Shown here in pieces: positions 13,422 to 49,736 of a stretch of 64,000 nucleotides of DNA (position 1 is the first letter of the stretch; every line of letters begins with the position of its first letter). Origin of the DNA: Pseudooceanicola nanhaiensis (GTDB lineage: Bacteria; Pseudomonadota; Alphaproteobacteria; Rhodobacterales; Rhodobacteraceae); contig NZ_JAIUZP010000016.1 in the NCBI RefSeq assembly GCF_020171315.1, positions 1 to 64,000 on the forward strand, given 5' to 3'. A program made the position numbers and the translations under genes. Below the pieces are notes generated by a model, which saw nothing but the letters and a program-made list of their open reading frames with translations, did no database searches and was not told where the DNA came from.

Positions 13422-14504
13422 ATGTCAAAGACACTTTATATTCACATCGGCCACTACAAGACCGGTACGACCGCCCTGCAGATTTTCTTCGACGAGGAGA
13501 CCGAGCTTCTGACCGAAGCCGGGGTCGAGTATCCCCGCGTCCGGTTCTACTACTCGAAGCATTCCGATTTCGCCTTCTCCATCCTGCGCGCCGCAGGGGT
13601 CGAGAAGATGATGTACGACTATACCAATCCCACCCCGCCGCAGGAGATGTGGGACGAGCTCTATGCCCACATCCGGGAGAGCACGTTCGACACCACGCTG
13701 ATCAGCTCCGAGGAATTCATCCGCCTGGGCCAGTTCGACCGGTCGCGCGAGATCCTGAAGCAGATGCTGGCCCGCAAGCCCGATGACCTCGAGATCAAGG
13801 TCGTGGCCTACCTGCGGTCGCCCGGGGCGCACCTGCGCTCGTGGTACAACCAGCTGATCAAGATGAACCACCCGGTCCCCGACCTGAACGCCGCGGTCAT
13901 GGGCGAGATCGAGGAAATCCACTACGACTACCGCCACGCGCTCGAACCCTGGGTCGAGGCGCTGGGGGCGGAGAACGTCATCGTCCGGCCCTACCGGCAC
14001 GACCGCAAGAACCCGGCCGCGCTGCACCAGGACTTCATGAAGATCTTCGGCGTCGATCTGCCCGCCCGCCGGGTGCGCCACACCACCGATCCCAACCCGC
14101 GTCTCGACGACCGGGTGATCGAGCTGGTGCGGATGATGCAGAACTCGAAATTCCCGCGCCCGACGATCAACGCGATCCTCAGCCAGGCCGACCTCTATTT
14201 CGCCCAGCAGGACGAACAGGTCGTCCGCAAGCCCGACCAGATGGCCGCAGCCCGCGCGGCGGCCGCCGAGGGGCTCGATTGGTTGGCAGAATTGCCCGGG
14301 GGCGCGCCCCATGCAGAACATTTCCGGCGCAATCTGCCGCAGCCGGTCGACCCTGCCGAAGTCGAACTCTACACTATGATCGGCTTCGTCTTTTCAGAAC
14401 TCATCCTGCTCCGGCAGCGGATCAACCGGATGAACCCGGAAGACATGACCGAACGGGTCAGCCGGCTTGAAAAGCAACTCACGGAGATCAGTGCGAAGAT
14501 ATGA
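13422..14504 (+). CDS. Sulfotransferase-family protein
   Basis: A 360-residue P-loop protein. The N-terminal strand and loop HIGHYKTGTTALQ (residues 8-20) match the 5'-phosphosulfate-binding loop of PAPS-dependent sulfotransferases, with K13 as the expected catalytic lysine. VVAYLRSPGAHLRSWYNQ (about 127-144) supplies the Arg and Ser of the 3'-phosphate-binding site. The last 20 residues (RVSRLEKQLTEI) can form a short coiled coil. It is the first gene of a rightward unit and overlaps the next gene by 4 bp (ATGA), so they are probably translationally coupled. Closest relatives in the window are at 20871 and 48663. The sulfate acceptor is most likely a surface glycan, by context. Confidence 0.8.
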   Translation: MSKTLYIHIGHYKTGTTALQIFFDEETELLTEAGVEYPRVRFYYSKHSDFAFSILRAAGVEKMMYDYTNPTPPQEMWDELYAHIRESTFDTTLISSEEFIRLGQFDRSREILKQMLARKPDDLEIKVVAYLRSPGAHLRSWYNQLIKMNHPVPDLNAAVMGEIEEIHYDYRHALEPWVEALGAENVIVRPYRHDRKNPAALHQDFMKIFGVDLPARRVRHTTDPNPRLDDRVIELVRMMQNSKFPRPTINAILSQADLYFAQQDEQVVRKPDQMAAARAAAAEGLDWLAELPGGAPHAEHFRRNLPQPVDPAEVELYTMIGFVFSELILLRQRINRMNPEDMTERVSRLEKQLTEISAKI

Positions 14505-16042
14505 GAATCCTGTTCTACAACTGGGTCGACTACCTGGACGACGAAAAGCGCGGGGGCGGGGTCAGCGTCTATCAGCGCAACCTGATCCGGGAACTGGACG
14601 CCGATCCGGAGACCGAATGCTATTTCCTCTGCTCCGGCATTTCCTACGACGTGCTGTCCGACGCGCCCCGCTGGGAGCGCATCAAGCACGGCCCTTCCGA
14701 GAACCGCGAGCGCCGCTTCGAGATCGTCAATTCCGGCGTTCTCTCGCCCGCGCACCACGCCTTCGGTGACGAACGCCAGCTCGACGAGCCGGCGACGGAA
14801 GAGATTTTCTACGATTTCCTGCGCAAGCACGGGCCCTTCGACGTCGTGCATTTCAACAACATCGAGGGCCTGCCCGCCACGGTGCTGCAACTGCGTGACC
14901 ACTTCCCCGACACCAAGGTGATCTTCGCCCTGCACAACTACTTCCCGGTCTGCCCGCAGGTGAACCTGTGGTTCCAGGAGAAGGAAAACTGCACCGACTA
15001 CGACAAGGGTCGGAAATGCGAGGTCTGCCTGCCCCACCGCCATGACCAGCGCGTCGTGCGGCTGGCCAACTCGGTGGCCTACAACCTGAAGAAACGCGGC
15101 ATCCGTCCCGGCACCCGGACCTTCGACCGGGCCTTCATGCCCGGCATGCGCATGGCCGGCCGGGCGTTGCGCTTCTACGGGCGCCGCTTCGGCAAATCCG
15201 GGCCCAAGCTCGCGGATCCGAACGCCGGCAAGCTGCTGCAGCGGGTCGAGATGGGCCATCACAAGTATGTCCGCCACCGGGAGAAGATGGTCGAGGCGAT
15301 CAACAAGAACTGTGACCGGGTGCTCTGCGTCTCGGACCGGGTCGGCGTGGTCGCGGCCAAGTTCGGCGTCGATCCCGCGCTGCTGACGACCTCCTACATC
15401 GGCACGCTGCACGCGGAGAAATTCGCCGAGACCCGCGCCCGGGACACGATCCTGAAGGCCGACGGCACGCTGACCATCGCCTACCTGGGCTACATGCGGC
15501 GCGACAAGGGCTTCTTCTTCCTGCTCGACGCGCTCGAGGCCCTGCCGGACGAGATGGCCGAGCGGATCAACCTCGTGATCGCCTCGCGGATGATCGACCA
15601 GGCCACGGCGGAACGGATCGCCCGGCTGAGCGACCAGTTCCGCTCGGTGCTCCATGCGGACGGCTACAGCCACGACAACCTCGACGAGCTGCTCTCGGAG
15701 GTCGATCTGGGCGTGATCCCGGTGCTCTGGGAAGACAACCTGCCCCAGGTGGCGATCGAGATGCATGCCCGCCACATCCCCCTGCTGACCTCCGACCTGG
15801 GCGGCGCGCAGGAGCTGGGCAATTGCAGCGACTTCGTCTTCACCGCCGGCGACCGGCGTGATTTCCAGCGCAAGATCAACCACATCCTCGACGGCGTGAC
15901 CGATCCGGCAGACTACTGGCGCTCTGCGATGGCGCCCAAGTCGATGGCCGAACACGTGGCCGAGCTGCGCGAGATCTACACCGATGGTGTCACGCCCGCG
16001 CAGGGGACCGATCCGGAAGATCAGGATCTCAAGGCCGGCTGA
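14501..16042 (+). CDS. Glycosyltransferase, group 1 / GT4-like
   Basis: A 513-residue enzyme with two Rossmann-like halves (GT-B). The N-terminus MRILFYNWVDYL followed by RGGGVSVYQRNL is the usual opening of GT4 enzymes. The C-terminal half contains LTIAYLGYMRRDKG, VDLGVIPVLWEDNLPQVAIE and the Gly-rich TSDLGGAQEL, matching the donor-binding region. It should transfer a sugar from a nucleotide donor to a growing glycan at the cytoplasmic membrane face. Its start overlaps the stop of the upstream sulfotransferase, and a PF03567-type sulfotransferase follows 13 bp downstream, so sugar addition and sulfation appear co-expressed. Donor and acceptor cannot be read from the sequence. Confidence 0.85.
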   Translation: MRILFYNWVDYLDDEKRGGGVSVYQRNLIRELDADPETECYFLCSGISYDVLSDAPRWERIKHGPSENRERRFEIVNSGVLSPAHHAFGDERQLDEPATEEIFYDFLRKHGPFDVVHFNNIEGLPATVLQLRDHFPDTKVIFALHNYFPVCPQVNLWFQEKENCTDYDKGRKCEVCLPHRHDQRVVRLANSVAYNLKKRGIRPGTRTFDRAFMPGMRMAGRALRFYGRRFGKSGPKLADPNAGKLLQRVEMGHHKYVRHREKMVEAINKNCDRVLCVSDRVGVVAAKFGVDPALLTTSYIGTLHAEKFAETRARDTILKADGTLTIAYLGYMRRDKGFFFLLDALEALPDEMAERINLVIASRMIDQATAERIARLSDQFRSVLHADGYSHDNLDELLSEVDLGVIPVLWEDNLPQVAIEMHARHIPLLTSDLGGAQELGNCSDFVFTAGDRRDFQRKINHILDGVTDPADYWRSAMAPKSMAEHVAELREIYTDGVTPAQGTDPEDQDLKAG

Positions 16043-16055
16043 GGAGATCAGCACC

Positions 16056-16910
16056 ATGTCGTCGACGGTCTTCAACATCGCCTCGGCGCGCCATCCGCAG
16101 AAGCAGCGGCGCGCCAAGGACTTCTACACCGACCACGAGGCGCTCCTCGTGGACGAGAAGGATGCCTACAGCTTCCTCGACTACATCTTCACGCCGGCGG
16201 ACAAGAGCTGGGCCTACCTGCCCTCGGGCAAGACGGGCACCAGCTCGACCCTCGCCTTCCTGTTCCACCTGACGACAGGGCACCCGCTCACGGCCCATCT
16301 CCAGCAGCTGAACGGGATGAACCCGGATCAGGCGGCCCACGAGCTGCACCGCACCATGGTCTTCTGCTCCCTGCTGGCGCGCGGCGACAAGATCCGGCCC
16401 GCACGCTACCTGCAGAGAACCCTGAAGCTCGCCACCGTACGGGACCCGATGGCCCGGGCGATCTCGGGGTTCCGCTACCTCTGCCAGGCGGATGCGCGGG
16501 GCATGACCCAGTTCTACACCGACCGGGCGCGGATGTCGGCGCTGACCGGCTTCGACTGGAACCGGCATCCCGATACGCCCGAGGGCTTCGAGCGGTTCCT
16601 CGACTACCTCCGGATCGACCTCGTCCACCACGCCGACCGCCCGGTGGATTCCCATTTCCGGCCGCAGGTGCTGAACATCCGCCCCGCCCTGTTCGTGCCC
16701 GATCTGATCGGGCGCTGCGAGGATCTGGGCGCCTTCTTCACCGCGATCGCCGACCGGCTTGGCCGGGCGCTGCCCGAGGGCGCGCTGGAGGCCCCGGCCC
16801 GCAACCGCGGCACCGGTCCCGAACGGGCGGATCTCGTCTCCCAGCAGGCCCGGCAGCTTGTCGCCGAGATCTTCGCCGCGGACTACGAGGCCTTCGGCTA
16901 CGACCTGTGA
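16056..16910 (+). CDS. Sulfotransferase, PF03567 (carbohydrate sulfotransferase) type
   Basis: A 284-residue protein. AYLPSGKTGTSSTLAFLFH carries the PAPS-binding loop with the catalytic-type lysine, and LATVRDPMARAISGFRYLC is the typical 3'-phosphate-binding block (R-D-P then S-x-F) of the carbohydrate sulfotransferase group, which includes the chondroitin and dermatan enzymes. The ATG at 16056 is chosen because GAGGAG precedes it and the protein N-terminus then fits. An upstream in-frame extension would overlap the previous gene heavily. It is the last gene of the 13.4-16.9 kb unit, followed by hairpins. Likely substrate: hydroxyls on the exported polysaccharide (inference). Confidence 0.82.
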   Translation: MSSTVFNIASARHPQKQRRAKDFYTDHEALLVDEKDAYSFLDYIFTPADKSWAYLPSGKTGTSSTLAFLFHLTTGHPLTAHLQQLNGMNPDQAAHELHRTMVFCSLLARGDKIRPARYLQRTLKLATVRDPMARAISGFRYLCQADARGMTQFYTDRARMSALTGFDWNRHPDTPEGFERFLDYLRIDLVHHADRPVDSHFRPQVLNIRPALFVPDLIGRCEDLGAFFTAIADRLGRALPEGALEAPARNRGTGPERADLVSQQARQLVAEIFAADYEAFGYDL

Positions 16911-16911
16911 A

Positions 16912-17203: not shown

Positions 17204-19267
17204 GTGCACGGTTTGCGCGCCTTCGACATCATCCTGAATTCGGCCGGGTTCGATCCCGCGTGGTATGACGGCCAATACCCCGACGCCCTGCGGATGGGGA
17301 TGTCCCCGCAGCAGCATTACGAGGCCTTCGGCTACCGACTCGGCCGCGGCCTGTCGGCGGCACAGCCCCGGCTGGAACCGGACACCTCCCTGGCCCGGGC
17401 GCTCGCCCGGACGCCGGTGATCTCCTACTGCACGCCGATCATGAACCGGCCCGACGATATCCGCACCACGCTGGCGGCGAACCTCGAGGAGAACCGCCCG
17501 CTTCAGGAGCAGGTGGAATTCGTCATCGCCTTCATGGACGAGGATACCGAGACCCACGACTGGCTGCGCGAGACCTTCGCCGAGGACATCGCCTCCGGCT
17601 ACCTGCGGATGCTCCTCCTGCCGCCGCTCGAGAGCTGGCATTTCGGCAAGGCCAAGAACATGCACCGCCCCTATGCCCGGGGCGCCGTCTACTCCAGTCT
17701 CGACGGCGACAACTTCGTCACCCTGGAGGAGACCCGGCAGCTGCTGGAGGTCCACGAGGCGCATCCCGAAGGCTTCGTCTTCCACCATTTCACCGGCAGC
17801 TGGGGCGACGGCAGCTCGGGTCGGATCAGCATGCCGATCGCCCTCTACCGGGAATTCGGCTACGACGAGAGCTTCATGCCGCGCCAGTACGACGAGATGG
17901 ACGTGCTGCTGACCGCGCTCTGCGCGGATCCGGACCTGCCCTTCGTCCGGCTGCGCACCGACAACCACGGCTTCAGCTCCAAGCGCTCGGTGCGCTTCAT
18001 GGAGGAGGCCGCTGTCGGCAACCCGATCCTGGAACTGGATGCGCCGCGCCACGTGGCGCCGGCCAACCCCAAGGACGAAGGCTACGTCCAGGCCGACCGC
18101 TCCATGGCGGCCATGACAAGCTTCAACCAGGGCCTCTGCTTCATGAAGAACGCCCGCACGCCGAAGATGCGGACGACCTACCTCGAACTGGCGATCGCCG
18201 GGCGGCACCGGGTGATCGACACCGTCCCCCGCGAGAAGATCCTGGCCACCCTGTTCCACATGCAGGGCGTGCCCGATCCCGCCACGCTGGAGATCGGCCC
18301 CGAGGATGTCTGCATCTTCGCCTGCATGAAGAACGACGATCTCTTCCTGCCGGATTTCTATGCGCACCACAAAGCCCTCGGCGTGGCGCATTTCTTCATC
18401 GTCGACGACGGTTCGGATGTTCCGATCGGCCAGACCCTGCCCCATGACGACGTCCATGTCTTCCGGCCCAAGGTCGGCAATTTCGTCACCGCCAAGGGCC
18501 TCTGGATGGAAGGGCTGATGAAGGCCTACCTCGACGAGGGGCAATGGGCGCTAACCCTCGACGCGGACGAGTTCCTCGACCTGCCCGAGGGCTGCGAGAC
18601 CCTGCCCGCCCTTGGCCGGCTGCTGGCAGAGCGCGGACAGGACCTGCAGGCCGCCCTTCTGGTCGACCTCGTCCCGCGCCCCGACGTGACCCCGGAAGAA
18701 CTGGACCGGGTCGAGACCGACTTCCTGTCGATCTTCGACCACCATGTCTACATCGACAGCCCGATCGCCAAGACCTATGCCCAGGCCGGATCGATCAAAT
18801 GGGCCTTCGGCCCCTATGCCCAGCTCTCCTGGCATCTCGACACGCGCTACCACGGCTTCGGGACCTTCGACGCGCTGCGCAAGATCCCGCTGATCCGCCA
18901 CCAGGCTGGCCGCCACCTGAACCAGGGCTTCCATACCCTGCATTACACCGATGGCCGCAAGGAACCCGGGCACGAGATCTGGGACACGGACCTGGTGATC
19001 ACCCTTCGGCACTTCAAGCTGCTGAAACTCTTCTCGACCACGGCGCGGACCCGCATGGCCGCGCAGGTCGCCTCGGCCCAGAATTCGCAATACCATGCCC
19101 GAACCACTGCAAATATCGCAAAGATCTTCGGCGATGGGGGGGAAGACAAGCTACACCAGATCTTGGCCTTGCCCAGCCGTCCGCTTGCCGATAGCGTCCT
19201 CCGAGGGCTCAAGCCCATGGAGTTTCGACAAAAAACCGACCGGAAAGATCCGCAAGGAACCGTATAA
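17204..19267 (+). CDS. Two-domain glycosyltransferase (GT2 plus PF13704/GT92-like)
   Basis: A 687-residue protein with three parts. Residues 1 to about 55 hold a short motif region (FDPAWYDGQYPDAL, then HYEAFGYRLGRG) seen in front of many bacterial glycosyltransferases. A GT2-like domain follows (VISYCTPIMNRPDDI; SLDGDNF as DxD-type motif; GSWGDGSSGR). From about residue 365 a second domain begins with VCIFACMKNDDLFLPDF and contains VDDGSD and TLDADEFL, matching PF13704/GT92-like enzymes. GTG start at 17204, with AGAGGA 5 bases upstream. Its N-terminal two parts match the gene at 23455 and its C-terminal domain matches the ends of the giant enzymes at 24861 and 60278. The next gene starts right after its stop, so they form an operon. 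Confidence 0.85.
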   Translation: MHGLRAFDIILNSAGFDPAWYDGQYPDALRMGMSPQQHYEAFGYRLGRGLSAAQPRLEPDTSLARALARTPVISYCTPIMNRPDDIRTTLAANLEENRPLQEQVEFVIAFMDEDTETHDWLRETFAEDIASGYLRMLLLPPLESWHFGKAKNMHRPYARGAVYSSLDGDNFVTLEETRQLLEVHEAHPEGFVFHHFTGSWGDGSSGRISMPIALYREFGYDESFMPRQYDEMDVLLTALCADPDLPFVRLRTDNHGFSSKRSVRFMEEAAVGNPILELDAPRHVAPANPKDEGYVQADRSMAAMTSFNQGLCFMKNARTPKMRTTYLELAIAGRHRVIDTVPREKILATLFHMQGVPDPATLEIGPEDVCIFACMKNDDLFLPDFYAHHKALGVAHFFIVDDGSDVPIGQTLPHDDVHVFRPKVGNFVTAKGLWMEGLMKAYLDEGQWALTLDADEFLDLPEGCETLPALGRLLAERGQDLQAALLVDLVPRPDVTPEELDRVETDFLSIFDHHVYIDSPIAKTYAQAGSIKWAFGPYAQLSWHLDTRYHGFGTFDALRKIPLIRHQAGRHLNQGFHTLHYTDGRKEPGHEIWDTDLVITLRHFKLLKLFSTTARTRMAAQVASAQNSQYHARTTANIAKIFGDGGEDKLHQILALPSRPLADSVLRGLKPMEFRQKTDRKDPQGTV

Positions 19268-19987
19268 ATGCCCCAAGGAAACATTCTCGTATCTTCTGCC
19301 CGATCGGGGACGAACTACTTTCTCAGTGTCTACTCCAAGTGCTTCCCCGACGCCTTCGTGGTTAAGGAGATCTTTCGCGAGGGCGGCGACAGCCTGCCCC
19401 GCCTCGAAGAACTGCTTGGGGTCGGCAGCCAGCGCATCCTGAAGATGGTGGAAAACAACCCGCTGCGGCTGTGGCGGAACATCAAGGAAGCCTGCGCCGA
19501 AGAGGAAATCCCCGCTCTGGCCAAGATCTTCTACTACCACGTGGAGTGGAACGCGCCGCTCTGGGAGAACTTCCGCAAGAACGACCGGGTGATCCACCTG
19601 ATCCGGCAGAACCCCTTCGACGTCTTCCTCTCGCACAAGGTCGCGCAACAGACCGGCCAGTGGCAGAAATTCGCCCGGGATGGCGAGGCGGCTCCCGTGG
19701 AACCGCTGGTTCTGGACCCTGAGGAACTCTCGAAGTTCATCGAGCGTCAGGGCGAGCATATCGAGAAGACCCGCAGCTTCTTCAAGGACGCGAACTTCAG
19801 CGAGATCTATTACGAGGACATCGCCAAATCCACCGAGGACTGCGTGGCGGCGATCTCGAAGATCTTCGAGATCGACGGTCCGAAGCAAGAGGTGAAGATT
19901 CCGCTCAAGCGTCAGAAGAGCGCCACGAACCAGGAACTCGTCGCGAATTACGACGAGGTTGCGATGTTCGACAAGGCCACGTTCTGA
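19268..19987 (+). CDS. Sulfotransferase-like P-loop protein
   Basis: A 239-residue protein beginning MPQGNILVSSARSGTNYFLS. SSARSGTN is a PAPS-loop of the Stf0/NodH-like type, where Arg replaces the more common Lys. HLIRQNPFDVFLSHKVAQQ supplies the 3'-phosphate-site Arg and Ser. The C-terminus ends VANYDEVAMFDKATF. The ATG directly follows the TAA of the upstream glycosyltransferase, with AAGGAA as ribosome site. A clear paralogue at 22478 on the other strand shares the N-terminal block, the Arg/Ser block and the NYxEVAxxDxxxF tail. It probably sulfates a glycan built by its neighbours. Confidence 0.78.
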   Translation: MPQGNILVSSARSGTNYFLSVYSKCFPDAFVVKEIFREGGDSLPRLEELLGVGSQRILKMVENNPLRLWRNIKEACAEEEIPALAKIFYYHVEWNAPLWENFRKNDRVIHLIRQNPFDVFLSHKVAQQTGQWQKFARDGEAAPVEPLVLDPEELSKFIERQGEHIEKTRSFFKDANFSEIYYEDIAKSTEDCVAAISKIFEIDGPKQEVKIPLKRQKSATNQELVANYDEVAMFDKATF

Positions 19988-20042: not shown

Positions 20043-20816
20043 TTGGAAACTGACAAAATTGCCAAACCCTTCGTCATCTGGACCCTGCAGCGGACCGGCG
20101 GCACCAACCTTCACAGCTTCCTGAACCGCAACTCGGCCTTCCAGAAGGTGCAGGACGAGCCCTTCAACGGACGCCGGGAATACGGTCACCTGACCCGGGA
20201 CTGGAAGGCCTCGAAGGACACCGAGGCCCTCGACAAGGGCATGAAGGACGTCTGCGCCCTGCAGCGCAACATCAAGCATTGCGTCGAACGCGTCCCCATG
20301 GCGGTGAGCAAATCCCTGGCCACGGCCTCTGTGGAGGCGGGCTACGTGCACCTGTTCCTCTACCGGGAGAACCCGACCGGCCGGCTGCTCTCGATGGAAT
20401 ACGCGGAGCGCACCCGCTCCTGGGGGCCCAGCCGTACGCTCGAACCCGGGGCCGATGCGGAGGCCTTCGAGGAGCCGCTCGACGTGGCCAAGCTGGTCGC
20501 CCATGAGACCGAAGCGAACGACAAGCTGAACAAATGCTGGCGCGCCCTGAAGAAGGCCGGCGCCAAGGCGGCAACGATCTCCTACGAGGAACTCTACGCC
20601 GGGGATGAGGACACCGCCCGGACCGCGCTGCAGCGGCTGTTCGACGGCTTCGGCTTTGCCGTGGATGCCGAGAAGCTGACCGAAGCGACGGAGGCGGTGC
20701 GCGGCCGCGGGGACCAGCAGACCCGGGACCGTTACGCCAGCTTCAAGGGGATCGAGACCCTGAAGGAAGGAATCTCCGGCATCCCGCCGCTGGTCTTCAG
20801 CCGGACCGCCACCTGA
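20043..20816 (+). CDS. Sulfotransferase-like P-loop protein
   Basis: About 257 residues from a TTG at 20043, preceded by GGAAGAG. No ATG or GTG gives a better in-frame start; the frame upstream reads through the previous gene and has no family resemblance. FVIWTLQRTGGTNLHSFL is the PAPS-loop region (QRTGGTN) and LFLYRENPTGRLLSMEYA the 3'-phosphate-site block, as in Stf0-like sulfotransferases. Acidic C-terminal half (KKAGAKAATISYEELYAGD). It lies 55 bp after a related gene and before a 9-bp hairpin. Substrate unknown, presumably carbohydrate. Confidence 0.7.
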   Translation: METDKIAKPFVIWTLQRTGGTNLHSFLNRNSAFQKVQDEPFNGRREYGHLTRDWKASKDTEALDKGMKDVCALQRNIKHCVERVPMAVSKSLATASVEAGYVHLFLYRENPTGRLLSMEYAERTRSWGPSRTLEPGADAEAFEEPLDVAKLVAHETEANDKLNKCWRALKKAGAKAATISYEELYAGDEDTARTALQRLFDGFGFAVDAEKLTEATEAVRGRGDQQTRDRYASFKGIETLKEGISGIPPLVFSRTAT

Positions 20817-20825
20817 TCTGATCCT

Positions 20826-20870: not shown

Positions 20871-21869
20871 ATGACACGTATCCTCCACTTGCACATGGGC
20901 ATGCCGAAGTGCGGCTCCAGCTCCCTGCAGGCCTACCTTCGGGCCCACCGTGAGGCCCTGGCCGCAGGCGGCGTCTGCTACCCTGATCTCGCCGGCAAGG
21001 CGATCGGGAACCTGACGCCCTTCATCATGACCCTGCACGGGGAACAGAAACAGGCCGTCTTCAAGCACAACAACCCTGACTACGATCCCGACGCGGCCCG
21101 CCCCGCGCTCGTGCGTTTTCTGGAGACCTCCGAGGCACCGCTGACGGTGCTCTCCTCCGAGGGCGTGTCGGAAATGGGCAAGCGTGCGAACCTCGACTTC
21201 ATCTTCGAGAGCTTCGACCGGGTCGTCGGCCATATCTTCTACCGCCCCCGGGTGGACTGGCTGCTGTCCCACTACACCCAGGCCATCAAGGCCGGGCGCT
21301 ACGACACGCCTCTCGAAGACGTTCTGGAGAACACCACCTTCAAGACCGTGACCAGTCAGAAGATGCGGTTCAGCGGCAGCCTCGCCTTCTGGCAGGGCAA
21401 GCTTGGCCGGGACAATGTCGAGGTCCACTTCCTGTCCCGCAGCTTCCCGCCGCCGGAAGAGCAGTTCATGTCCAGCCTGGGCGTCGAGATGGCGCTGCCG
21501 GCCTTGGAAAAAGGCGCAGCGAACAGCTCGCCCACGCCCTTCGAGACCTGCGTGCTGGCCTCTGCCAAGCGGACGTCGCAAAAGCAGTTCCTGAAGATCA
21601 GCCGCAAGATCCGGCGCATCGCCGCGCCCTTCGATCCCTTCCCGAAGCGCTCCCTGCTCTCCGAGGCGATCCTCGAGCGGATCAACGCGACATTCGCGGA
21701 GGATACCGACCGCTTCCTGACGCTGCAGGATCGGATCAGCCGCGCGGATCTCGAACCCGACCTGTCGCAGAAGACGGCACAGGCGATCACCTTCGAGGAG
21801 ATCCGGGCCCACCCCGCCTATGCAGAGGTACGGGCCGTGCTGGCGAAAAAGAAGATCGAACTGGCCTGA
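20871..21869 (+). CDS. Sulfotransferase-family protein
   Basis: A 332-residue P-loop protein. HLHMGMPKCGSSSLQAYL (residues 6-23) is the PAPS loop with K13. LTVLSSEGVSEMG and HIFYRPRVDWLLSHYTQAIK align with the SSE block and the 3'-phosphate-site block of the proteins at 13422 and 48663, so the three form one subfamily. Charged C-terminal end (EIRAHPAYAEVRAVLAKKK). It is the last rightward gene before a convergent small gene. Acceptor unknown. Confidence 0.78.
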   Translation: MTRILHLHMGMPKCGSSSLQAYLRAHREALAAGGVCYPDLAGKAIGNLTPFIMTLHGEQKQAVFKHNNPDYDPDAARPALVRFLETSEAPLTVLSSEGVSEMGKRANLDFIFESFDRVVGHIFYRPRVDWLLSHYTQAIKAGRYDTPLEDVLENTTFKTVTSQKMRFSGSLAFWQGKLGRDNVEVHFLSRSFPPPEEQFMSSLGVEMALPALEKGAANSSPTPFETCVLASAKRTSQKQFLKISRKIRRIAAPFDPFPKRSLLSEAILERINATFAEDTDRFLTLQDRISRADLEPDLSQKTAQAITFEEIRAHPAYAEVRAVLAKKKIELA

Positions 21870-22477: not shown

Positions 22478-23248
22478 TCAGAACACCTCGAGGCGATCGA
22501 GGTCGGCAACCTCGCCGTAGTTGCTCACCACGTCGGCATTGCTGCGCTGCTTCATCCGCTGGAAGCTGGGCCGGATCTTGTCGACCTCCACGATGCCCTT
22601 GGGCAGGTCGTACATGTCGGTCACCGCCCGGGCGCAGCGCAGCGGCGAGCGGATGACGTCCTCGAAGACGATCTCGTGGTAATTCGCCCCGGTGAAGAGG
22701 TTGCGGAACTGCACGATCTCCTTCCGGCGCGCGGAGATGTAGCGCTCGACATCCTTGCGGTCGACTTCGACCAGGAGGTCATCGGGGGCCGCCTCGTCAT
22801 GCAGGTTGCGCCACCACTTCCCGGTCTTCTGGGCAATGAGCCGCGACAGGTAGGCCTCGAACAGGTTGCGCCGCACCAGGTGGATCACATGATCTTCCCG
22901 GGCCACCGCGCCCCAGAGCGGATTGCCTGTGGGCTTGTGGTAGTAATAGGCCTTGGCGATCACCGGAACACCGCGGTCGGCCACCGCCGCCTTCACCGCG
23001 CTCCAGAAGCCGACGGGGTCCTCGTTCGCCTGTTTGCGAACCTCGTCGCGGGGCTGGCCCAGCAGGTCCGACAGGACGTTGAGATTGTCGGTGTCCTTTC
23101 GGAAAATCTCGTTCAGGACAAGCGCGTCTTCAAAAACTTTTCTATAAATATCAATAAAGTAGCTGGCACCGAACCGGGCGGAACTGACCAGGACCGTTGC
23201 CTGGAGCGCGGCCGCAGACCCGGGCTCATACACAGGCTGTGGAATCAT
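22478..23248 (-). CDS. Sulfotransferase-like protein with altered PAPS loop
   Basis: A 256-residue paralogue of the protein at 19268. VLVSSARFGASYFIDIY aligns with its SSARSGTNYF block, but Ser-Gly-Thr-Asn has become Phe-Gly-Ala-Ser, so the phosphate-binding loop is weakened. The rest is conserved: VIHLVRRNLFEAYLSRLIAQ for the 3'-phosphate site and the SNYGEVADLDRLEVF tail. It may bind PAPS differently or be inactive. The protein is encoded on the strand opposite its paralogue, next to the small basic gene and downstream of a GT2 gene. The 206-bp gap upstream probably holds a promoter. Confidence 0.75.
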   Translation of the reverse strand: MIPQPVYEPGSAAALQATVLVSSARFGASYFIDIYRKVFEDALVLNEIFRKDTDNLNVLSDLLGQPRDEVRKQANEDPVGFWSAVKAAVADRGVPVIAKAYYYHKPTGNPLWGAVAREDHVIHLVRRNLFEAYLSRLIAQKTGKWWRNLHDEAAPDDLLVEVDRKDVERYISARRKEIVQFRNLFTGANYHEIVFEDVIRSPLRCARAVTDMYDLPKGIVEVDKIRPSFQRMKQRSNADVVSNYGEVADLDRLEVF

Positions 23249-23454: not shown

Positions 23455-24762
23455 TCAGTCCTCCACGAGGAGATCCCCCTGGGCCTGCAGCGCCTTTTTC
23501 AGCGCCCCGAGCCAGAGATCGCGGGCCGTGTCCGCATGACCGAATCGCGGCTGCAGCGCATGGCCCACGGGCGGCCCCTCGCCCTGCGCGGACCAGACCT
23601 CGAGGCAGCGATGCCCGGACAGCGGCGCGCGCGCGGGCAGGCGCACCCGCCAGCGGGTGCCCTGCCCCGTCCCCAGCCGGGAGAAACCCTGAAACAGCCA
23701 GTTGCCCAGCGTTTCGGCCGAGACCGCCTGGATGAACCGCTGCGCGCTGCGCTTCATTTCGACCAGGTGGCGGTTGCGGTCCTCGGGGAGGGCGGCCAGT
23801 TTATAGTAGCAGGCGGCCTCGTTGTAGGAATGCATCGCCCGGATGACCGGATCGGTCTGGACGTAATCCGCCTCCTTCGCATCCAGCGCCGCGATCCGGG
23901 CCGGGAAAGGCAGCCGGTGCGGTGCCACGTCAAGTCCCTGCGCCGCGAGGAACCGCAGGATATTCTCCGACGACAGGGCCGTCTCCTCGGTATCGTAGCA
24001 GAAATAGGGCAGCCCCGGACGGGCCGAGAGGCAGCCCAGGATCAGGTCGATCTCGTCGAACTGGCGCGGCATGAAACGCTCGTCGTAGCCGACCCGGCGG
24101 TACAGCGCGGCCGGCAGGCTCACCCGGCCCGAACTGCCATCCCCCCAGACCCCGGAAAAATGGTGGAACAGGAAGCCGCCGGGATGCTGCTCATGCAGGG
24201 CCAGCAGGAGGTCGGTCTCCTCCAGCGTCGGCACGTTGTCCGCATCCAGGCTGGCGTAGACCTGCCCCGACAGGCACGACCTGAAGGCATTCTTGGCGAT
24301 CCCGAAATGCCAGCCGGACAGCGCGTCGCTGTGCCGGACCCGCAGGAAGCCGCTGCGCAGCGCCTCCGGGAACTGCGCCCGGACCCAGTCGATCACCGCC
24401 CGGTCCGCATCGAAGACCATCACCAGGATCTCCACCTGCCCTGCACGCGGGGCCTGTTCCTTCAGGATGTCGGGCAGCGTGGTGCGCAGCAGGTCGAAAC
24501 GGTCGAGCACCGGGATGCAGTAGGACAGCACCGGCCGCGCCGACAGCGCCGCCTCCAGCCCCTCGAGCTCGGCCGCAAGGGCCGCCCCGGACAGGTCCCC
24601 ATGGGCCGGACGCCCCAGGTGCCGCCCCAGGGCAAGGTAGTGGTCCGCCGGCGTCAGGCCCGAGGACAGCCCGTCCCGGCCCACGTCCCCATATTGCCGG
24701 CAATACCAGACCGGATCGAAACCATAGCCATTCAGCAGGATGTCCGACCGGTCCCCGTCCAT
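23455..24762 (-). CDS. GT2-like glycosyltransferase
   Basis: About 435 residues. After a short lead the FDPVWYCRQYGDV motif and HYLALGRHLGRP match the N-terminus of the enzyme at 17204. The GT2-type domain follows: VLSYCIPVLDRFDLLRTTLP, SLDADNVPTLEETD (DxD motif) and GVWGDGSSGRVSLP. The enzyme therefore equals the first two parts of the 17204 protein without its GT92-like domain. Start: ATG 24762 is preferred because AAGG lies eight bases upstream; ATG 24771 and TTG 24780 are in frame but badly spaced. It is divergent from the very large glycosyltransferase at 24861. Donor unknown. Confidence 0.8.
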   Translation of the reverse strand: MDGDRSDILLNGYGFDPVWYCRQYGDVGRDGLSSGLTPADHYLALGRHLGRPAHGDLSGAALAAELEGLEAALSARPVLSYCIPVLDRFDLLRTTLPDILKEQAPRAGQVEILVMVFDADRAVIDWVRAQFPEALRSGFLRVRHSDALSGWHFGIAKNAFRSCLSGQVYASLDADNVPTLEETDLLLALHEQHPGGFLFHHFSGVWGDGSSGRVSLPAALYRRVGYDERFMPRQFDEIDLILGCLSARPGLPYFCYDTEETALSSENILRFLAAQGLDVAPHRLPFPARIAALDAKEADYVQTDPVIRAMHSYNEAACYYKLAALPEDRNRHLVEMKRSAQRFIQAVSAETLGNWLFQGFSRLGTGQGTRWRVRLPARAPLSGHRCLEVWSAQGEGPPVGHALQPRFGHADTARDLWLGALKKALQAQGDLLVED

Positions 24763-24860
24763 GATATTCATCCTTGTCAAACCCCCGGGCGCACCCTAAC
24801 CGGGATGGAGGCTATAGCTATGCAGAAAGTGCAGACCCAAAGGAAGTCCCCCCTGACGTC

Positions 24861-28661
<3,801 letters not shown>

Positions 28662-30190: not shown

Positions 30191-30930
30191 TCTCTCCCCA
30201 AGCCCCCGAGGAGACGGGCCTGTCCCCCGCCCTCTCCGCGCAGCCGCAGTTCCCGGATCTCTGCCGGCCTGAAAAATACGTCTTCATCGTCACCTACGGG
30301 ATGTCCGGGGACATCCCGCTGCAGGCGCTGCTCAACCGGATCGAGGGCTATTGCATCCGCGGCCGCAACAACAATGCGGTGCACCACATGGTGCGCAGCT
30401 GGTGCGCCGCGAAGGCCCATCTGGCGGCGCGGCTGCAGCAGGGCGGAACGGTCAGCTCCGAGGATTTCCGGCGGCTGGACAGGATGGGCCTGCAGCTGGC
30501 GGACAGCTTCGTGCGCAACGTGATCGTCCCCCCGGAGGAGACCCGCGTCGCCGGCTTCCGCGAGATCGAGTTTCACCGCAGCAGCAGCTTCTTCGAAGTC
30601 GAGCTGGACTTCCTGCACACCTTCTTCCCCAACGCCCGCTTCGTGTTCAACACGCGCGATCACAAGGCGGTCTCGCAACTGGGCTGGTGGCGGGACATGG
30701 CCCCGGCCAAGGTGTCGGCCCTCCTGGGGAGCGCCGACCGTCTCTTCGCCGAGTACACCGCCAGCCATCCCGAGCGTGCCCTCCTGCTGCACTACGAGGA
30801 TTACGCCAAGGACGTGCAGAAGCTGGCCCCGCTCTATGCCTTCCTCGGAGAGAGCTTCGACCCGACTGTCCTCGAGCAGACGCTCGACAAGGCCGGCCGT
30901 GACGGCACCCCGCACTGGATGAAAGCATGA
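30187..30930 (+). CDS. Sulfotransferase-like protein with degenerate P-loop
   Basis: A 247-residue protein. YVFIVTYGMSGDIPLQALLN sits where sulfotransferases carry a GRSGST-type loop, so the phosphate-contacting Arg and Thr are missing. FVFNTRDHKAVSQLGWW keeps the Arg and Ser of the 3'-phosphate site, and LLHYEDYAKD fits the later conserved region. It overlaps both neighbours by 4 bp (ATGA at each end), which implies translational coupling. It may be a non-catalytic paralogue or use a different donor geometry. Confidence 0.65.
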   Translation: MISPQAPEETGLSPALSAQPQFPDLCRPEKYVFIVTYGMSGDIPLQALLNRIEGYCIRGRNNNAVHHMVRSWCAAKAHLAARLQQGGTVSSEDFRRLDRMGLQLADSFVRNVIVPPEETRVAGFREIEFHRSSSFFEVELDFLHTFFPNARFVFNTRDHKAVSQLGWWRDMAPAKVSALLGSADRLFAEYTASHPERALLLHYEDYAKDVQKLAPLYAFLGESFDPTVLEQTLDKAGRDGTPHWMKA

Positions 30931-34206: not shown

Positions 34207-34980
34207 GTGAAAACCCGCAGCCATGCCACCTTCCGCAGCGTGATTGCGCTGATGCTGCGCGAGATGTCGACCCGCTACGGCAAGACGCCGGGGGGATATC
34301 TCTGGGCGATCCTCGAACCGATCGCGGCCATCAGCATCATGGCGCTCGCCTTCTCGATCATGCTGCGCTCCCCCTCGCTGGGCAACAGCTTCATCCTGTT
34401 CTACGCCAGCGGTTTCCTGCCGTTCAACATCTACCAGAGCGTCTCGGTCATGTCGGCCCGCTCGATCCTCTTCTCGCGGCCGCTGCTGTTCTATCCCAGC
34501 GTGACCTGGATGGATGCGATCCTCGCCCGGTTCCTGCTGAACACGCTCACCGGCTATCTCATCGCCTTCGTGGTCATGTCCGGGGTTCTGGCGCTGTCCG
34601 ACACCGCTGTCGTGCTCCGGGCCGGTCCGATCCTCTCCGCCATGGTCCTCTCCGCCCTCATGGGGCTGAGCGTCGGCACGATGAACTGCCTGATCATGGG
34701 GCTCTATCCCACCTGGGACGTGATCTGGTCGATCGCCACGCGGCCCCTCTTCATCATCTCGGGCATCATCTTCATCTACGAGGACCTGCCGCGCGCGGTG
34801 CAGAACATCCTCTGGTTCAATCCGCTGGTCCACATCACCGGCCTGTTCCGGTCCGGGGTCTTCCCGATGTACAGCCCGAACTACATCTCGATCGTCTACG
34901 TGATGGGCTGGATCCTGGTCCCGATGGTCGTCGGGATGATCGGCCTGCGCCGCTACCACCGGGACATCCTGAACGGCTGA
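34207..34980 (+). CDS. kpsM: Polysaccharide ABC exporter permease (KpsM-like)
   Basis: A 257-residue ABC-2 type permease with about six membrane segments, e.g. LEPIAAISIMALAFSIML and LFIISGIIFIYEDLP. The opening LMLREMSTRYGKTPGGYLWA is the KpsM/CtrC cytoplasmic hallmark, and the central LWFNPLVHITGLFRSGVFP is also conserved. It pairs with KpsT. GTG start at 34207, with no better start upstream in frame. It is divergent from kpsE, with a 116-bp shared promoter region, an arrangement unlike the usual adjacent kpsMT. Confidence 0.9.
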   Translation: MKTRSHATFRSVIALMLREMSTRYGKTPGGYLWAILEPIAAISIMALAFSIMLRSPSLGNSFILFYASGFLPFNIYQSVSVMSARSILFSRPLLFYPSVTWMDAILARFLLNTLTGYLIAFVVMSGVLALSDTAVVLRAGPILSAMVLSALMGLSVGTMNCLIMGLYPTWDVIWSIATRPLFIISGIIFIYEDLPRAVQNILWFNPLVHITGLFRSGVFPMYSPNYISIVYVMGWILVPMVVGMIGLRRYHRDILNG

Positions 34981-35069: not shown

Positions 35070-36113
35070 TCAGCCGGCAGGCGGCGGGGCCGGCAGGCTG
35101 GCGATCAGCGCCGCGTGGTCGGTGCCGGTGCGCCGGCGCAGCCCGTCCACCACGGCGCGGGCCAGCAGGCGCAGGAAGGCCCCCCGGGTGCCGGAATGAT
35201 GGCGCACCTTCAGCAGCCATTTCGGCAAGATCACCAGCAGCAGCGGCCAGAACAGCAGCGGCCCCGCCGCCATGCGGTAAAGCATCAGCAGGTTGCGGTG
35301 GTAGTAATAGACCTTCCACAGCGGGCGGAAGCGCCGGTCCTCGCCCAGCGTGCGGCAGTCATGCTCGAAGCGGACCGCCGGCAGGAAGGCGATCCGCCCG
35401 CCCGCCGCGCTGAGCCCGAGGGAATAGATCCCATCCTCGCCGTAGACGAAGAGCGCCCCGTCCGGGTAGCCGAAGCGCGCCACCGCCGCCCGGGAGACGA
35501 AGAAGCCCACGAAGGAGGTGATGTCGATCGCCAGCGGCGGGCCGTCATAGGCCGCGGGCGGGATGTGGAACGTGTCCCGGGAGCCGCCCCGGCGCACGGC
35601 CCGGCGGAAGATCGCCCCGTGCCAGAACGGGTTGCGCGAGGGGCGGTTCATCTCGCAGATGCGCCCGTCGGGATAATAGACCGCGGCGGCCACCGCATCC
35701 CACTGGCCGGGATCGGCCCCGTGGAAGGCCGCCAGCGCCCCCGGTTCGGGGCGTCCGTCGTCATCCATCAGCACGATCCAGTCCGGATCGCGCTGCGCGG
35801 TGATCTGGCGCATGCCCAGCTCGAAGCCCCCGGCCCCGCCAAGGTTCTTCGGGCAGGAGATCACCTCAAGCCGGGGATCCGCGCGCCCGGCCAGCCAGGC
35901 CCCGGTGCCATCGGTGGAGGCATTGTCCACCACGACGACACCCTCCAGCTCTGCCGGCGGCGAGGCCAGCAGGCGATCCAGGGTGATCTTGAGCTGTTCC
36001 AGGCGGTTGAAGGTCACCACGAGGGCGACCAGCCGCCCCGCGCCCGCTGTCAGATCCTCGTCCGGCACGCTGCGCCCGCCCCCTGTTCTGTGTAAGTCCG
36101 GTCCCCCTTCCAC
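35070..36113 (-). CDS. GT2 glycosyltransferase, rhamnosyl/galactofuranosyl-transferase type
   Basis: A 347-residue GT-A enzyme. LVALVVTFNRLEQLK (29-43) opens the fold, VVVVDNASTDGT holds the nucleotide-site Asp, NLGGAGGF (90-97) and the MDDDG metal-binding motif (116-120) follow. The combination of VVTFNR, NLGGAGGF and DDDG is typical of GT2 rhamnosyl- and galactofuranosyltransferases. A hydrophobic stretch near residue 295 (LLFWPLLLVILPKWLL) may anchor it in the membrane. Both UDP-galactofuranose (glf) and dTDP-rhamnose (rml) donors can be made by this replicon, which fits. GTG start at 36113; the GTG at the VPDEDL position is an alternative. Confidence 0.82.
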   Translation of the reverse strand: MEGGPDLHRTGGGRSVPDEDLTAGAGRLVALVVTFNRLEQLKITLDRLLASPPAELEGVVVVDNASTDGTGAWLAGRADPRLEVISCPKNLGGAGGFELGMRQITAQRDPDWIVLMDDDGRPEPGALAAFHGADPGQWDAVAAAVYYPDGRICEMNRPSRNPFWHGAIFRRAVRRGGSRDTFHIPPAAYDGPPLAIDITSFVGFFVSRAAVARFGYPDGALFVYGEDGIYSLGLSAAGGRIAFLPAVRFEHDCRTLGEDRRFRPLWKVYYYHRNLLMLYRMAAGPLLFWPLLLVILPKWLLKVRHHSGTRGAFLRLLARAVVDGLRRRTGTDHAALIASLPAPPPAG

Positions 36114-39300: not shown

Positions 39301-44559
<5,259 letters not shown>

Positions 44560-45269: not shown

Positions 45270-45335
45270 GCGCCGCCCGGCACAGCCTTTCCCGTCCGGT
45301 CCCTCCGCTCTGCGGGCCGGACCGCGGTCTTCCGG

Positions 45336-46634: not shown

Positions 46635-46644
46635 GACAGCCTCC

Positions 46645-48042: not shown

Positions 48043-48318
48043 GAGCGGGTCCCCGTGTGGTGGCACCGTGATCACTGCGCGGCAGTGTCCACGCGGGAAG
48101 GATAATCCGCCCGGGCCGGCTGTCACCTCACATTCCCGGGGGCACCGGGGGCGATCGGCGGGGAACCGCCCCGCCGCCGCCCCCAACGGCCCCCTCGGGT
48201 CCGGGCGCCGGTCACCGTCGGCAGCCCCCTGCCGCCGCTCACAGTCCTGTAGCATTGAGGATCGAAACCTCGTAGACAGGAGCGAGCCCTACAAACCCAT
48301 GATTTTCAAGAAGGCTTC

Positions 48319-48582: not shown

Positions 48583-48662
48583 CCTCGCCGCCTCGGTGCG
48601 GGGCGGTCCCTGCCCCGCACCTGACGAGACCTTGCGAAGAGCCCCGGGCCAGGAGGAGAGCC

Positions 48663-49736
48663 ATGACCGAGCTCGTTCTGCATATCGGCGACATGAAGAC
48701 CGGCACCACGTCGATCCAGAGCGCCCTGCTGGCGCAGGACTGGCAGGGGGCCACGCGCCGTGTCTGCTATCCGACCGCCCCGGGCCAGCCCTACCACCAT
48801 GCGCTGGTCGAGTTCATCCGCCAGAACAACACCGAGCAGGTCACCCGGAGCTTCGACGAGATCCGCGAGCGGATCGAGACGAGCGACGCCGAGATCGCCG
48901 TGATCTCCTCGGAGCTGCTGGAGGAATTTCCCGCCGAGCAGGTGATGGAGGTCTTCGCCCGGCACCTGCCCGATCTCGTCCCGACGATGCGGGTTCTGGC
49001 CTATGTCCGCCCCCACGCCGAGCGGGTGATGTCGAGCTGGACCCAGCAGATGAAGCTGGGCTTCTTCTCCGAGGGGGTCGAGGACTTCCTGCCCGGGTTC
49101 CTCTCCCGCGGGAAGCTGGCCTATTCCCAGCGCTTCGGCGCCTGGCGCGACATCGTCGGCCCCCGGCTGACCCTGCGCCCGATGATCCGCAGCGCCCTTG
49201 CGGGCGGCGACGTGGTGCAGGATTTCATGGCCCAGGTCCTGCCCGGCGACAGCCTGACCTTCCCGCCCCGGCAGGAGATCAACGAGACCCTGAGCATCGC
49301 CGATCTGGCCCTGCTGCGCCGCCTGCACCAGCACCCGAAGCGGGTGCTCGACGACCGCACCCGGGATGCCCACATGCGGATGGGCGAATACCTGGCCTAT
49401 ACGCTCTCGGCCCTGCCCCGCAGCGGCAGCCCGCGCCCGGCCCTGTCGCGCGCCGCCTACGAGCGGATCCGCGAGACCTGCACCGAGGACGCCCGGCTGC
49501 TGGACGAGACCTTCTTCGACGGCCGCCCGATGCAGGACGCGCTGCTGGCCGCCGAGGCCAAGGTGACGGAAGAGGCGCAGTCGCTCGACCCGGCAGATCA
49601 CCTCGGACCGGAGGAGCTGCGCCTGTCGGAAGTCTACGCGGTGCTGCTGCACGACCTGGTGAGCGGTGCGCCGGTGCGGATCAACGAGGTCCTGATGCAG
49701 CGGATCGACGCCGTCATGCGGGGATCGGGGGACTGA
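48663..49736 (+). CDS. Sulfotransferase-family protein
   Basis: A 357-residue relative of the proteins at 13422 and 20871. LVLHIGDMKTGTTSIQSALL is the PAPS loop (K12). IAVISSELLEEFPAE and VLAYVRPHAERVMSSWTQQ are the SSE and 3'-phosphate-site blocks. GGAGAG precedes the ATG. It lies between the DUF1800/DUF1501 pair and the rhamnose operon, some 27 kb from the other sulfotransferases. Acceptor unknown. Confidence 0.8.
   Translation: MTELVLHIGDMKTGTTSIQSALLAQDWQGATRRVCYPTAPGQPYHHALVEFIRQNNTEQVTRSFDEIRERIETSDAEIAVISSELLEEFPAEQVMEVFARHLPDLVPTMRVLAYVRPHAERVMSSWTQQMKLGFFSEGVEDFLPGFLSRGKLAYSQRFGAWRDIVGPRLTLRPMIRSALAGGDVVQDFMAQVLPGDSLTFPPRQEINETLSIADLALLRRLHQHPKRVLDDRTRDAHMRMGEYLAYTLSALPRSGSPRPALSRAAYERIRETCTEDARLLDETFFDGRPMQDALLAAEAKVTEEAQSLDPADHLGPEELRLSEVYAVLLHDLVSGAPVRINEVLMQRIDAVMRGSGD

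Follow-up and report, generated by a model that had tools for sequence, protein, structure and literature searches.

Background

RepA-I rhamnose "biofilm plasmids" are known from roseobacters (Michael et al. 2016, as relayed in extracts of PMC8224337 and PMC9044938). In Synechocystis 6803, the xss cluster on megaplasmid pSYSM underlies synechan, a proven sulfated polysaccharide with rhamnose, and the extract of the 2021 report states that, to its authors' knowledge, such genes were unreported in other bacterial polysaccharide clusters (PMC8205485). For Vibrio sp. KMM 8419, the structure of a sulfated capsule was reported with its gene cluster (extract of PMC11641403). Like the replicon studied here, xss is a plasmid-borne cluster of glycosyltransferase and sulfotransferase genes, but as far as its extract goes it has two sulfotransferases and Wzx/Wzy export (PMC8205485). 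The Vibrio locus and the genome studied here have ABC export in common, as well as genes for rhamnose, PAPS and sulfotransferases; in the extract the locus is chromosomal and has three sulfotransferase genes (PMC11641403). The gene combination of these clusters, glycosyltransferases, sulfotransferases and export together and PAPS supply in the genome, was also found here.

Nature of the replicon and related plasmids

The window, meaning the whole stretch of DNA analysed, comprised 64,000 bases of a contig that spans 68,950, with 4,950 bases lying beyond it. The replicon encodes a RepA replication initiator (56600..57727, plus strand; 71% identity to the annotated RepA of plasmid pS3B) and ParB and ParA (53644..56306, minus strand; Pfam, ParB slightly below the cut-off; 51% and 81% to pS3B). 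It also carries rmlC, rmlB, rmlD and rmlA (50093..53539, plus strand; Pfam for rmlC, 55-78% to annotated pS3B genes), a manC-type mannose-1-phosphate guanylyltransferase gene (3942..5375, minus strand; 66.5% to the annotated pS3B gene) and the UDP-galactopyranose mutase gene glf (43417..44559, plus strand; 79% to annotated pS3B glf); beside these, a UDP-glucose dehydrogenase-type gene is a predicted further source of sugar nucleotides. Export genes were a KpsT-type ABC ATPase (31611..32264, minus strand; Pfam ABC_tran), a KpsE-type export protein (32276..34090, minus strand; no Pfam match, 54% over 365 aa to a pS3B 'sugar transporter') and a KpsM-type ABC permease (34207..34980, plus strand; Pfam ABC2_membrane). 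Pfam and the identity to pS3B bear out the co-residence of KpsMTE-like export, glf, manC and rmlCBDA given in the preliminary description. With four large RTX-type genes, RepA/ParAB, rmlCBDA, manC, glf and KpsMTE occur together here as on the rhamnose "biofilm plasmids" of Rhodobacterales, and by gene content the replicon resembles the RepA/rhamnose plasmids already described and is predicted to be a Rhodobacterales biofilm plasmid of the rhamnose type. Plasmids of this type are circles of about 65-70 kb on which biofilm formation and attachment depend; the ends of our contig did not overlap at the nine lengths tried and looked RTX-repeat-like by eye.

The sulfotransferase-type genes are interspersed with the glycosyltransferase, sugar-nucleotide and KpsMTE genes. 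The glycosyltransferases comprise a Glyco_trans_1 type (14501..16042, plus strand; Pfam, 64% to its pS3B counterpart), a GT2 type (17204..19267, plus strand; Pfam, 60-65% to five counterparts), a glycosyltransferase-like protein related to the latter and upstream of 22478 (23455..24780, minus strand; no Pfam match, 42% to the pS3B glycosyltransferase adjoining the 22478 counterpart), a large Glyco_tranf_2_4 protein (24774..28661, plus strand; Pfam), another GT2 protein (35070..36113, minus strand; Pfam), one that shares 45% identity with a GT2 protein of pS3B along 482 aa (57724..60126, plus strand) and a large one (60278..64000, reaching 64390 on the contig, minus strand; Pfam). Partial translational coupling with glycosyltransferases, proposed before, was visible as a 4-base overlap between 13422 and 14501 and in 19268, whose start immediately follows the stop of 17204; 30187 and 30927 also begin with 4-base overlaps.

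The Thalassococcus sp. S3 plasmid pS3B (63 kb) is a public sibling that shares many genes with our replicon, including all three lineages of altered or missing donor loop described below, although gene order is rearranged between the two. Best matches were 42-65% identical for glycosyltransferases and 26-43% for sulfotransferases; 13422, 16056, 65367 and 30927 gave no pS3B match by blastp. Phaeobacter pGal_F69, a single replicon that is likewise close to 69 kb long, also carries RepA/ParAB, rmlCBDA, KpsMTE-type, glf, manC, DUF2793 and RTX-type genes, but type I secretion genes are present on it and none were seen among our gene calls, and it had none of the three lineages at E <= 1e-4, all of which our replicon carries. 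The comparison across related plasmids suggested in the preliminary description gave 12 sulfotransferase-type genes on our replicon, at least nine sulfotransferase-fold ORFs by profile on pS3B (the N-terminal part being absent from one) as well as a sulfotransferase recognised by its annotation, and at least three by the same profiles on pGal_F69; counts for other plasmids are lower bounds because the profiles contain members from our replicon and the Cereibacter, Alloyangia and Jannaschia plasmids were read over 50 kb. Given the known plasmid setting, pS3B and the published sulfated-polysaccharide clusters, the replicon is a dense form of an already described type. The former proposal of an undescribed system is not supported for the replicon as a whole: RepA/rhamnose plasmids are described, the sibling is public and the extracts report such clusters from a cyanobacterium and a marine Vibrio (PMC8205485, PMC11641403).

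The sulfotransferase-fold proteins

All nine ORFs of the preliminary description were recovered in place, and the contig holds 12 sulfotransferase-like genes: the eight named as sulfotransferases, 30927, and three in the tail past the window, at contig 64585-67118. In single-protein searches of the eight, only 16056 (PF03567, 1.4e-15) and 30187 (PF13469, 4.8e-8) exceeded Pfam cut-offs; 19268 (about 3e-4), 22478 (0.02) and 48663 (0.005) stayed below, as did 20043, whose sulfotransferase match (0.08) ranked under an unrelated DUF (0.009), and 13422 and 20871 had no sulfotransferase match in Pfam. NCBIfam gave no match for the six of these eight that were scanned with it. Single-protein Pfam and NCBIfam scans were too weak to decide most members.

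Group profiles, not these scans, decide the fold membership of most named proteins. The KTGTT/KCGSS group (alignment A1, from 22 of 29 fetched loci, near-copies and one locus without an ORF being left out) matched the PDB sulfotransferase 3rnl at 1.5e-13, and the AF2 model of 20871 (pLDDT 83) had 3rnl as its top Foldseek match (8.4e-5). The SARSGTN/QRTGGTN profile, with 7 of 10 rows from other genomes, matched 'LPS sulfotransferase NodH' 9vki at 3.6e-21. PF03567 formed another group, and the fourth, TYGRSGST, with PF13469 in 11 of 12 rows, contained 30187. Every group could be linked to solved sulfotransferases by profile or by fold, weakly in the case of 30927. Profile searches, which could have overturned the family assignment, thus placed all eight proteins within sulfotransferase-fold groups; the number eight was an understatement, and of "at least three groups" the plurality held, the number being four with 30187 in its own group.

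Nine of the 12 have a canonical or near-canonical donor loop, taken as Lys/Arg, Gly or Ala, plus a hydroxyl residue. In the KTGTT/KCGSS group these are 13422..14504 (plus strand; intact loop), the KCGSS-type 20871..21869 (plus strand) and 48663..49736, which adjoins the rml genes (plus strand; 37% to pS3B 16409). The others are the PF03567 protein 16056..16910 (plus strand), the SARSGTN-type 19268..19987 (plus strand; intact loop by group profile and alignment), the QRTGGTN-type 20043..20816 (plus strand; profile A3, 43% and 58% to the pS3B and L129 counterparts), with the near-canonical loop RTGGTN, and in the tail 64585-65340 (plus strand), 65367-66053 (plus strand; near-canonical KVACTS) and 66060-67118 (minus strand).

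In the genome, PF13469 (2 of 5 matches) and PF03567 (2 of 7) together place 4 of 12 matches on a replicon that makes up 1.43% of the sequence (binomial 1.9e-5), so the concentration of sulfotransferases on it is more than chance. PF00685 had no match in this genome at E <= 0.001.

Lineages with an altered or missing donor loop

The combination of Lys/Arg, Gly and hydroxyl residue is absent from 22478..23248 (minus strand; loop SARFGAS, with RFGAS at the site), 30187..30930 (plus strand; loop GMSGDI, with MSGDI at the site) and the loop-less, divergent paralogue 30927..31565 (plus strand). As judged from sequence, these three of the 12 may not transfer sulfate. All three lineages occur in six genomes of several genera. 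The 30187-type loop reads G[DN][IL] in 6/6 genomes (alignment A5), while of the TYG-type relatives from outside the module described below, 28/28 distinct ones examined had GR[ST]GST; beyond these 28 stand G199:C5:9591 and G304:C5:33662 (not fetched) and L114 (under the profile threshold). The 22478-type loop reads RFG[AG] in 6/6 genomes (alignment A7), whereas a hydroxyl residue follows the glycine in 12/12 other rows of its family tree, which was built without 20043. Trees calculated without the loop columns united both the 22478-type (99/99, starred) and the 30187-type lineage (94/92, not starred). Frame errors were rejected as a source of the odd loops, since each lineage shares its change and no reading frame is interrupted.

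It is unlikely, though conceivable, that the 12 proteins, with or without 30927, are all active PAPS sulfotransferases and that the odd loops form a variant donor site. All six 22478-type proteins retain the loop Arg and the 3'-site Arg, Asn and Ser, which would suit such a site, but their loops have lost Thr and gained Phe. In the 30187 type, Asp/Asn and Leu/Ile replace the Ser-Thr pair and the loop Arg is gone in 5/6, the exception being Shimia thalassica; the 3'-site Arg is present in 6/6, with Ser or Thr there in 4/6. Noncanonical loops are no proof of inactivity: according to the extract of a review, a consensus loop may be absent from bacterial sulfotransferases, and searches may miss such proteins (PMC11625862).

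Counterparts of 30927 occupy the same position in five other genomes, so the idea of a possible remnant, or stray degraded copy, was rejected. The profile of these counterparts matches TYG-type sulfotransferases, and in the tree the lineage has long branches and an unsure place. Searches of the plasmids by tblastn found no match, the pS3B counterpart included, and detection was by profiles and position. The AF2 model, whose alignment contained sulfotransferase rows, was P-loop-like; Foldseek gave no match at E <= 0.001; kinases led the list and TPST2 stood at ranks 7 and 10, which is consistent with the fold but not decisive.

A protein with a heptad-rich C-terminal part (28808..30190, plus strand) precedes 30187, and this part aligns with the small ORF preceding the 30187-type gene in sibling loci. 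The heptad-rich, 30187-type and loop-less genes are adjacent in 6/6 genomes, and a glycosyltransferase gene is next in five, completing a four-gene module. Decay into functionless copies is highly improbable for 22478, 30187 and 30927. The altered loop residues and the 13-33% identity of 30927-type proteins to each other would fit decay, but a similar loop change recurs in six genomes, with open frames and kept gene order, and codon position 2 has changed less than position 3. Differences per codon at positions 2/3 were 0.42/0.68 (30187 type), 0.39/0.63 (22478 type) and 0.56/0.69 (30927 type), as compared with intact relatives (0.34-0.36/0.58-0.63) rather than a neutral baseline.

PAPS supply, product and proposed roles

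An APS kinase domain (1.2e-60) was found in a 573-aa ORF on contig C1, off the plasmid, and contigs C1 and C7 carry three ORFs with KpsC/KpsS-type domains (PF05159). With KpsM and KpsT recognised by Pfam and KpsE by similarity, the gene set of an ABC-exported capsule is present in the genome, and the KpsC/KpsS-type proteins presumably serve the plasmid's polysaccharide. With 12 sulfotransferase-like genes among surface-polysaccharide genes, the replicon likely makes a sulfated, ABC-exported surface polysaccharide. Given the gene mix, the APS kinase and the KpsC/KpsS-type genes, a plasmid-borne sulfated-glycan locus is the best reading.

We infer active enzymes, a sulfated product and a partner role for the altered proteins, and as a joint reading we lean towards a biofilm plasmid that makes a sulfated, exported polysaccharide with nine probable sulfotransferases and three non-catalytic partners. 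Sugar nucleotides would come from manC, glf, rmlCBDA and the UDP-glucose dehydrogenase-type gene and PAPS from the enzyme encoded on the other contig; the chain would probably be started by KpsC/KpsS-type enzymes from other contigs. The nine loop-bearing proteins would probably sulfate different sites, while 22478, 30187 and 30927 would most likely be non-catalytic partners in docking, acceptor binding or chain control, acting around glycosyltransferases 17204 and 23455 and the heptad-rich 28808, before export via KpsMTE.

A different sulfotransferase target, such as lipopolysaccharide, a glycolipid, a secreted RTX protein or a small molecule, appears quite unlikely. The 19268 group is closest in the PDB to 'LPS sulfotransferase NodH', then Stf0, and the four RTX-type genes share the replicon, but both here and on pS3B the interspersed glycosyltransferases and co-resident KpsMTE speak against such targets. 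If the polysaccharide is sulfated, the replicon would hold the densest sulfation toolkit among the eight plasmids compared, and its sibling belongs to a publicly available strain.

More speculatively, and with considerable doubt, the altered proteins could be pseudoenzymes of bacterial polysaccharide assembly: the four-gene module and the RFG-loop protein would act as a scaffold or ruler that keeps active sulfotransferases and the elongating chain together, setting the place or duration of sulfation before KpsMTE export, with the active sulfotransferases evolving fast around a slower glycosyltransferase core. Such retained dead-site lineages would parallel pseudoenzymes, in bacteria, and would offer a handle on how a chain acquires its sulfation pattern. 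SULT4A1 is a retained sulfotransferase-fold protein with little or no reported activity, from an animal cytosolic family without a gene cluster. Among the matches listed, no literature description was found of two changed-loop sulfotransferase lineages with an adjacent loop-less paralogue.

Distribution of the four-gene module

The four-gene module provides a searchable marker. A search with 17204 gave nine loci, and module status covers six of them: the four at >=60% identity have the module, and L127 (46%) and L128 (42%) are without it in the DNA examined, with L130, L131 and L133 (31-33%) outside this count. The 17204 counterpart directly follows the 30187/30927-type pair in five sibling loci, whereas on our replicon the pair does not adjoin 17204.

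Gene content of the replicon

The window forms the first 64,000 bases of a 68,950-base contig (C16) in a genome of 4.8 Mb and 30 contigs. A replication gene, repA, was located at 56600, and ParA, ParB, RmlCBDA, ManC, Glf, KpsM, KpsT and KpsE were identified on the replicon by Pfam or similarity. Also encoded in the window are seven proteins of glycosyltransferase type, five recognised by Pfam and two by similarity, together with four of RTX type (two by Pfam, two by translation or similarity) and one DUF2793 protein. The last 4,950 bases of the contig (the tail) hold three genes of sulfotransferase type as well as one of UDP-glucose dehydrogenase type. The large RTX-type genes occupy about 16 kb (1-3481, 6898-13044, 36208-39069 and 39328-43080 (-)). 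Since RTX-like repeats were seen by eye at both contig ends, the assembly may break inside an RTX gene of a circular plasmid. A DUF1501 and DUF1800 gene pair lies within this polysaccharide replicon at 45336-48255 (-). By annotation, the DUF2793 protein (5518-6840 (+)) also occurs on pGal_F69 (a Phaeobacter rhamnose biofilm plasmid), pS3B (the sibling plasmid of Thalassococcus sp. S3) and plasmids of Jannaschia, Cereibacter, Tropicibacter and Alloyangia.

Sulfotransferase-fold proteins

The preliminary description counted eight sulfotransferase-family proteins in at least three groups. Scanned singly, only two of the eight (16056 and 30187; genes are named by start coordinate) passed the Pfam cut-off, and none of the six scanned against NCBIfam gave a match; group profiles were clearer than either scan. 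The KTGTT group (13422, 20871, 48663 and tail 66060), with 22 profile rows from other genomes, matched the PDB sulfotransferase 3rnl at 1.5e-13 and then cytosolic sulfotransferases, and its members taken one by one matched the Pfam sulfotransferase families in 3, 2 and 1 of 26 cases (E <= 0.01). For the 20871 model (pLDDT 83.4), 3rnl was the sole Foldseek match at E <= 0.001 (TM 0.46/0.59), with zeta toxins and P-loop kinases among tyrosylprotein and heparan-sulfate sulfotransferases at lower ranks. The SARSGTN/QRTGGTN group (19268, 22478 and 20043), whose profile has 10 rows, 7 of them from genomes other than the query's, matched 'LPS sulfotransferase NodH' at 3.6e-21. PF13469 was found in 11 of the 12 rows of the TYGRSGST group (30187 and tail 64585), the exception being 30927, and the best PDB match of this group was the CurM sulfotransferase (1.2e-5). 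Both members of the PF03567 group (16056 and tail 65367) exceeded the Pfam cut-off. Profile searches thus confirmed the description, tied four groups rather than the three named to known sulfotransferases, and raised the count above that claimed, to 11 members plus 30927, or 12 in 69 kb.

The protein 30927 is likely related to sulfotransferases. Of 390 genomes searched with its profile (six counterparts), 22 beyond the two with true members gave matches to TYGRSGST-type sulfotransferases at E values of about 1e-6 to 1e-19. AF2 modelled it with a P-loop-like fold (pLDDT 81), for which Foldseek returned no match at E <= 0.001, ranking kinases first and TPST2 at 7 and 10.

PF13469 (2 of 5) and PF03567 (2 of 7) together placed 4 of 12 genome matches on 1.43% of the genome (binomial 1.9e-5). 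The KTGTT profile placed 4 of 9 on this contig, a count biased towards plasmid members because the profile was built with those four. Other contigs hold 13 of the 21 matches from these three whole-genome searches.

Comparison with known plasmids and pathways

The best-matching named plasmids were from Rhodobacterales, the best record spanning only 34% of the stretch searched; at the rml end some matches came from other orders. The host is placed in Rhodobacterales on the strength of these matches, and that assignment is accordingly tentative. Like the query, pGal_F69 carries RepA/ParAB, KpsMTE-type genes, glf, manC, DUF2793, rmlCBDA and RTX-type genes; RepA-I plasmids bearing a rhamnose operon have been termed 'biofilm plasmids'. 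The closest plasmid was pS3B (RepA 71%, ParA 81%, KpsT 69%, Glf 79%); its best glycosyltransferase matches reached 42-65% and its sulfotransferase matches 26-43%. With the same profiles, sulfotransferase-fold proteins numbered 12 in the query, 9 in pS3B (omitting one further annotated sulfotransferase missed at the threshold), 4 in Tropicibacter, 4 in Sulfitobacter W027 (including one copy inside a repeated block) and 3 in pGal_F69, and in 50-kb parts 3 in Cereibacter pA, 2 in Jannaschia and 1 in Alloyangia. Three annotated proteins missed by the profiles bring Cereibacter pA to at least six. Four sulfotransferases are annotated on this plasmid of the laboratory strain C. sphaeroides 2.4.1, alongside rml, RepA and KpsMTE-type genes, and it might be a tractable test case. 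On the Sulfitobacter sp. W027 plasmid (NZ_CP083568.1) a block of about 12 kb occurs twice (3388-15531 and 53569-65712) with identical protein accessions, either a true duplication or an assembly artefact.

Sulfated polysaccharides are reported from six bacterial genera, and loop motifs may deviate (review, PMC11625862). Synechan involves two sulfotransferases on a megaplasmid, its sulfated product being reported as demonstrated (PMC8205485); in Vibrio KMM 8419, whose capsule is described as sulfated, three sulfotransferase genes accompany those for ABC export and rhamnose (PMC11641403); and Pontiella, with a sulfated exopolymer, is credited with three putative glycosaminoglycan sulfotransferases, one of them clustered. 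Among the matches listed, literature on sulfotransferases with roseobacters, biofilm plasmids or Rhodobacterales gave no recognisable report of such a locus, and titles and abstract openings on inactive or pseudo-sulfotransferases gave no bacterial case. The system as a whole belongs to a known kind of plasmid and pathway, of which it is a dense variant, and the earlier proposal of an undescribed system was not supported at that level; among the matches listed, no description was found of the dead-site lineages treated below.

In the pathway we propose, PAPS would be supplied from a 573-aa ORF on contig C1 containing the only APS kinase match in the genome, chains would be initiated by the KpsC/KpsS-type (PF05159) proteins found on contigs C1 and C7, and export would use the plasmid KpsMTE. 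Gene content suggests a backbone of rhamnose, galactofuranose, mannose and glucuronate. The PAPS loop is canonical or near-canonical in nine proteins, which would leave room for several sulfation sites.

A rare gene module with changed loops

Nine loci in named genomes were found with the 17204 glycosyltransferase as query. Counterparts of both 22478 and 30187 are present in the four loci with 60-64% identity, those of Shimia thalassica, Shimia sp. CNT1-13L.2, a Pseudorhodobacter MAG and Paracoccus aestuariivivens. With the query and pS3B, a 30927-type gene lies directly 3' of the 30187-type gene in 6 of 6 loci; 30927, first described as a possible remnant, is therefore not a stray one. The order heptad-rich ORF, 30187-type, 30927-type, 17204-type was found in 5 of 6; the query keeps the first three contiguous at 28808-31565, with 17204 elsewhere. 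The 22478-type gene adjoins a 23455/17204-type glycosyltransferase in all but Shimia thalassica (5 of 6). The heptad-rich ORFs have a KER motif region in common, and a crude count with no control suggests coiled-coil character. Judged from the genomes searched, the module is rare: among 390 genomes of the order, true 30927-type members (E < 1e-70) were found in two, the query and one whose contig and protein match pS3B, and 22478 alone had a strong match outside its own genome in just one.

The loops read SARFGAS in 22478 and YGMSGDI in 30187, and their counterparts on pS3B are altered in like manner (SARFGGR and CGLTGDL). G[DN][IL] is present in all six 30187-type loops, with Arg retained in one; their 3'-phosphate site has Arg in 6 of 6 and Ser or Thr in 4 of 6. 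GR[ST]GST occurs in all 28 distinct relatives examined outside the module (two further matches and one weak locus below threshold lie outside this set), and also in the query's own 64585 and in the second copy at locus L129. RFG[AG] is present in 6 of 6 22478-type loops, and the other family rows (20043, RTGGTN, left out) have Ser or Thr after the glycine in 12 of 12. When the loop columns were excluded from tree building, a single branch set the 30187-type rows apart from all others (94/92, not starred; recovered in 96% of bootstrap trees), and the same held for the 22478-type rows (99/99, starred); the 30927-type rows grouped at 79/88, on long branches with unsure placement. Differences at codon positions 2/3, taken without a neutral control, were 0.42/0.68 (30187-type), 0.39/0.63 (22478-type) and 0.56/0.69 (30927-type); intact relatives gave 0.34-0.36/0.58-0.63 and the 17204-type 0.20/0.57. 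Six independent loop changes are disfavoured by these loop, tree and codon-position figures, which fit a single origin of each lineage followed by retention. The three proteins, retained beside particular glycosyltransferases, would most likely have a non-catalytic role, and these retained dead-site lineages are the part deserving specialist attention.

Changed loops also occur in the KTGTT group of sibling loci: TTGSA in one pS3B member (15190-16416 (-)), and KTATT common to three loci (pS3B 36541-37587, L125 15082-16095 and L126 17032-18084 (+)).
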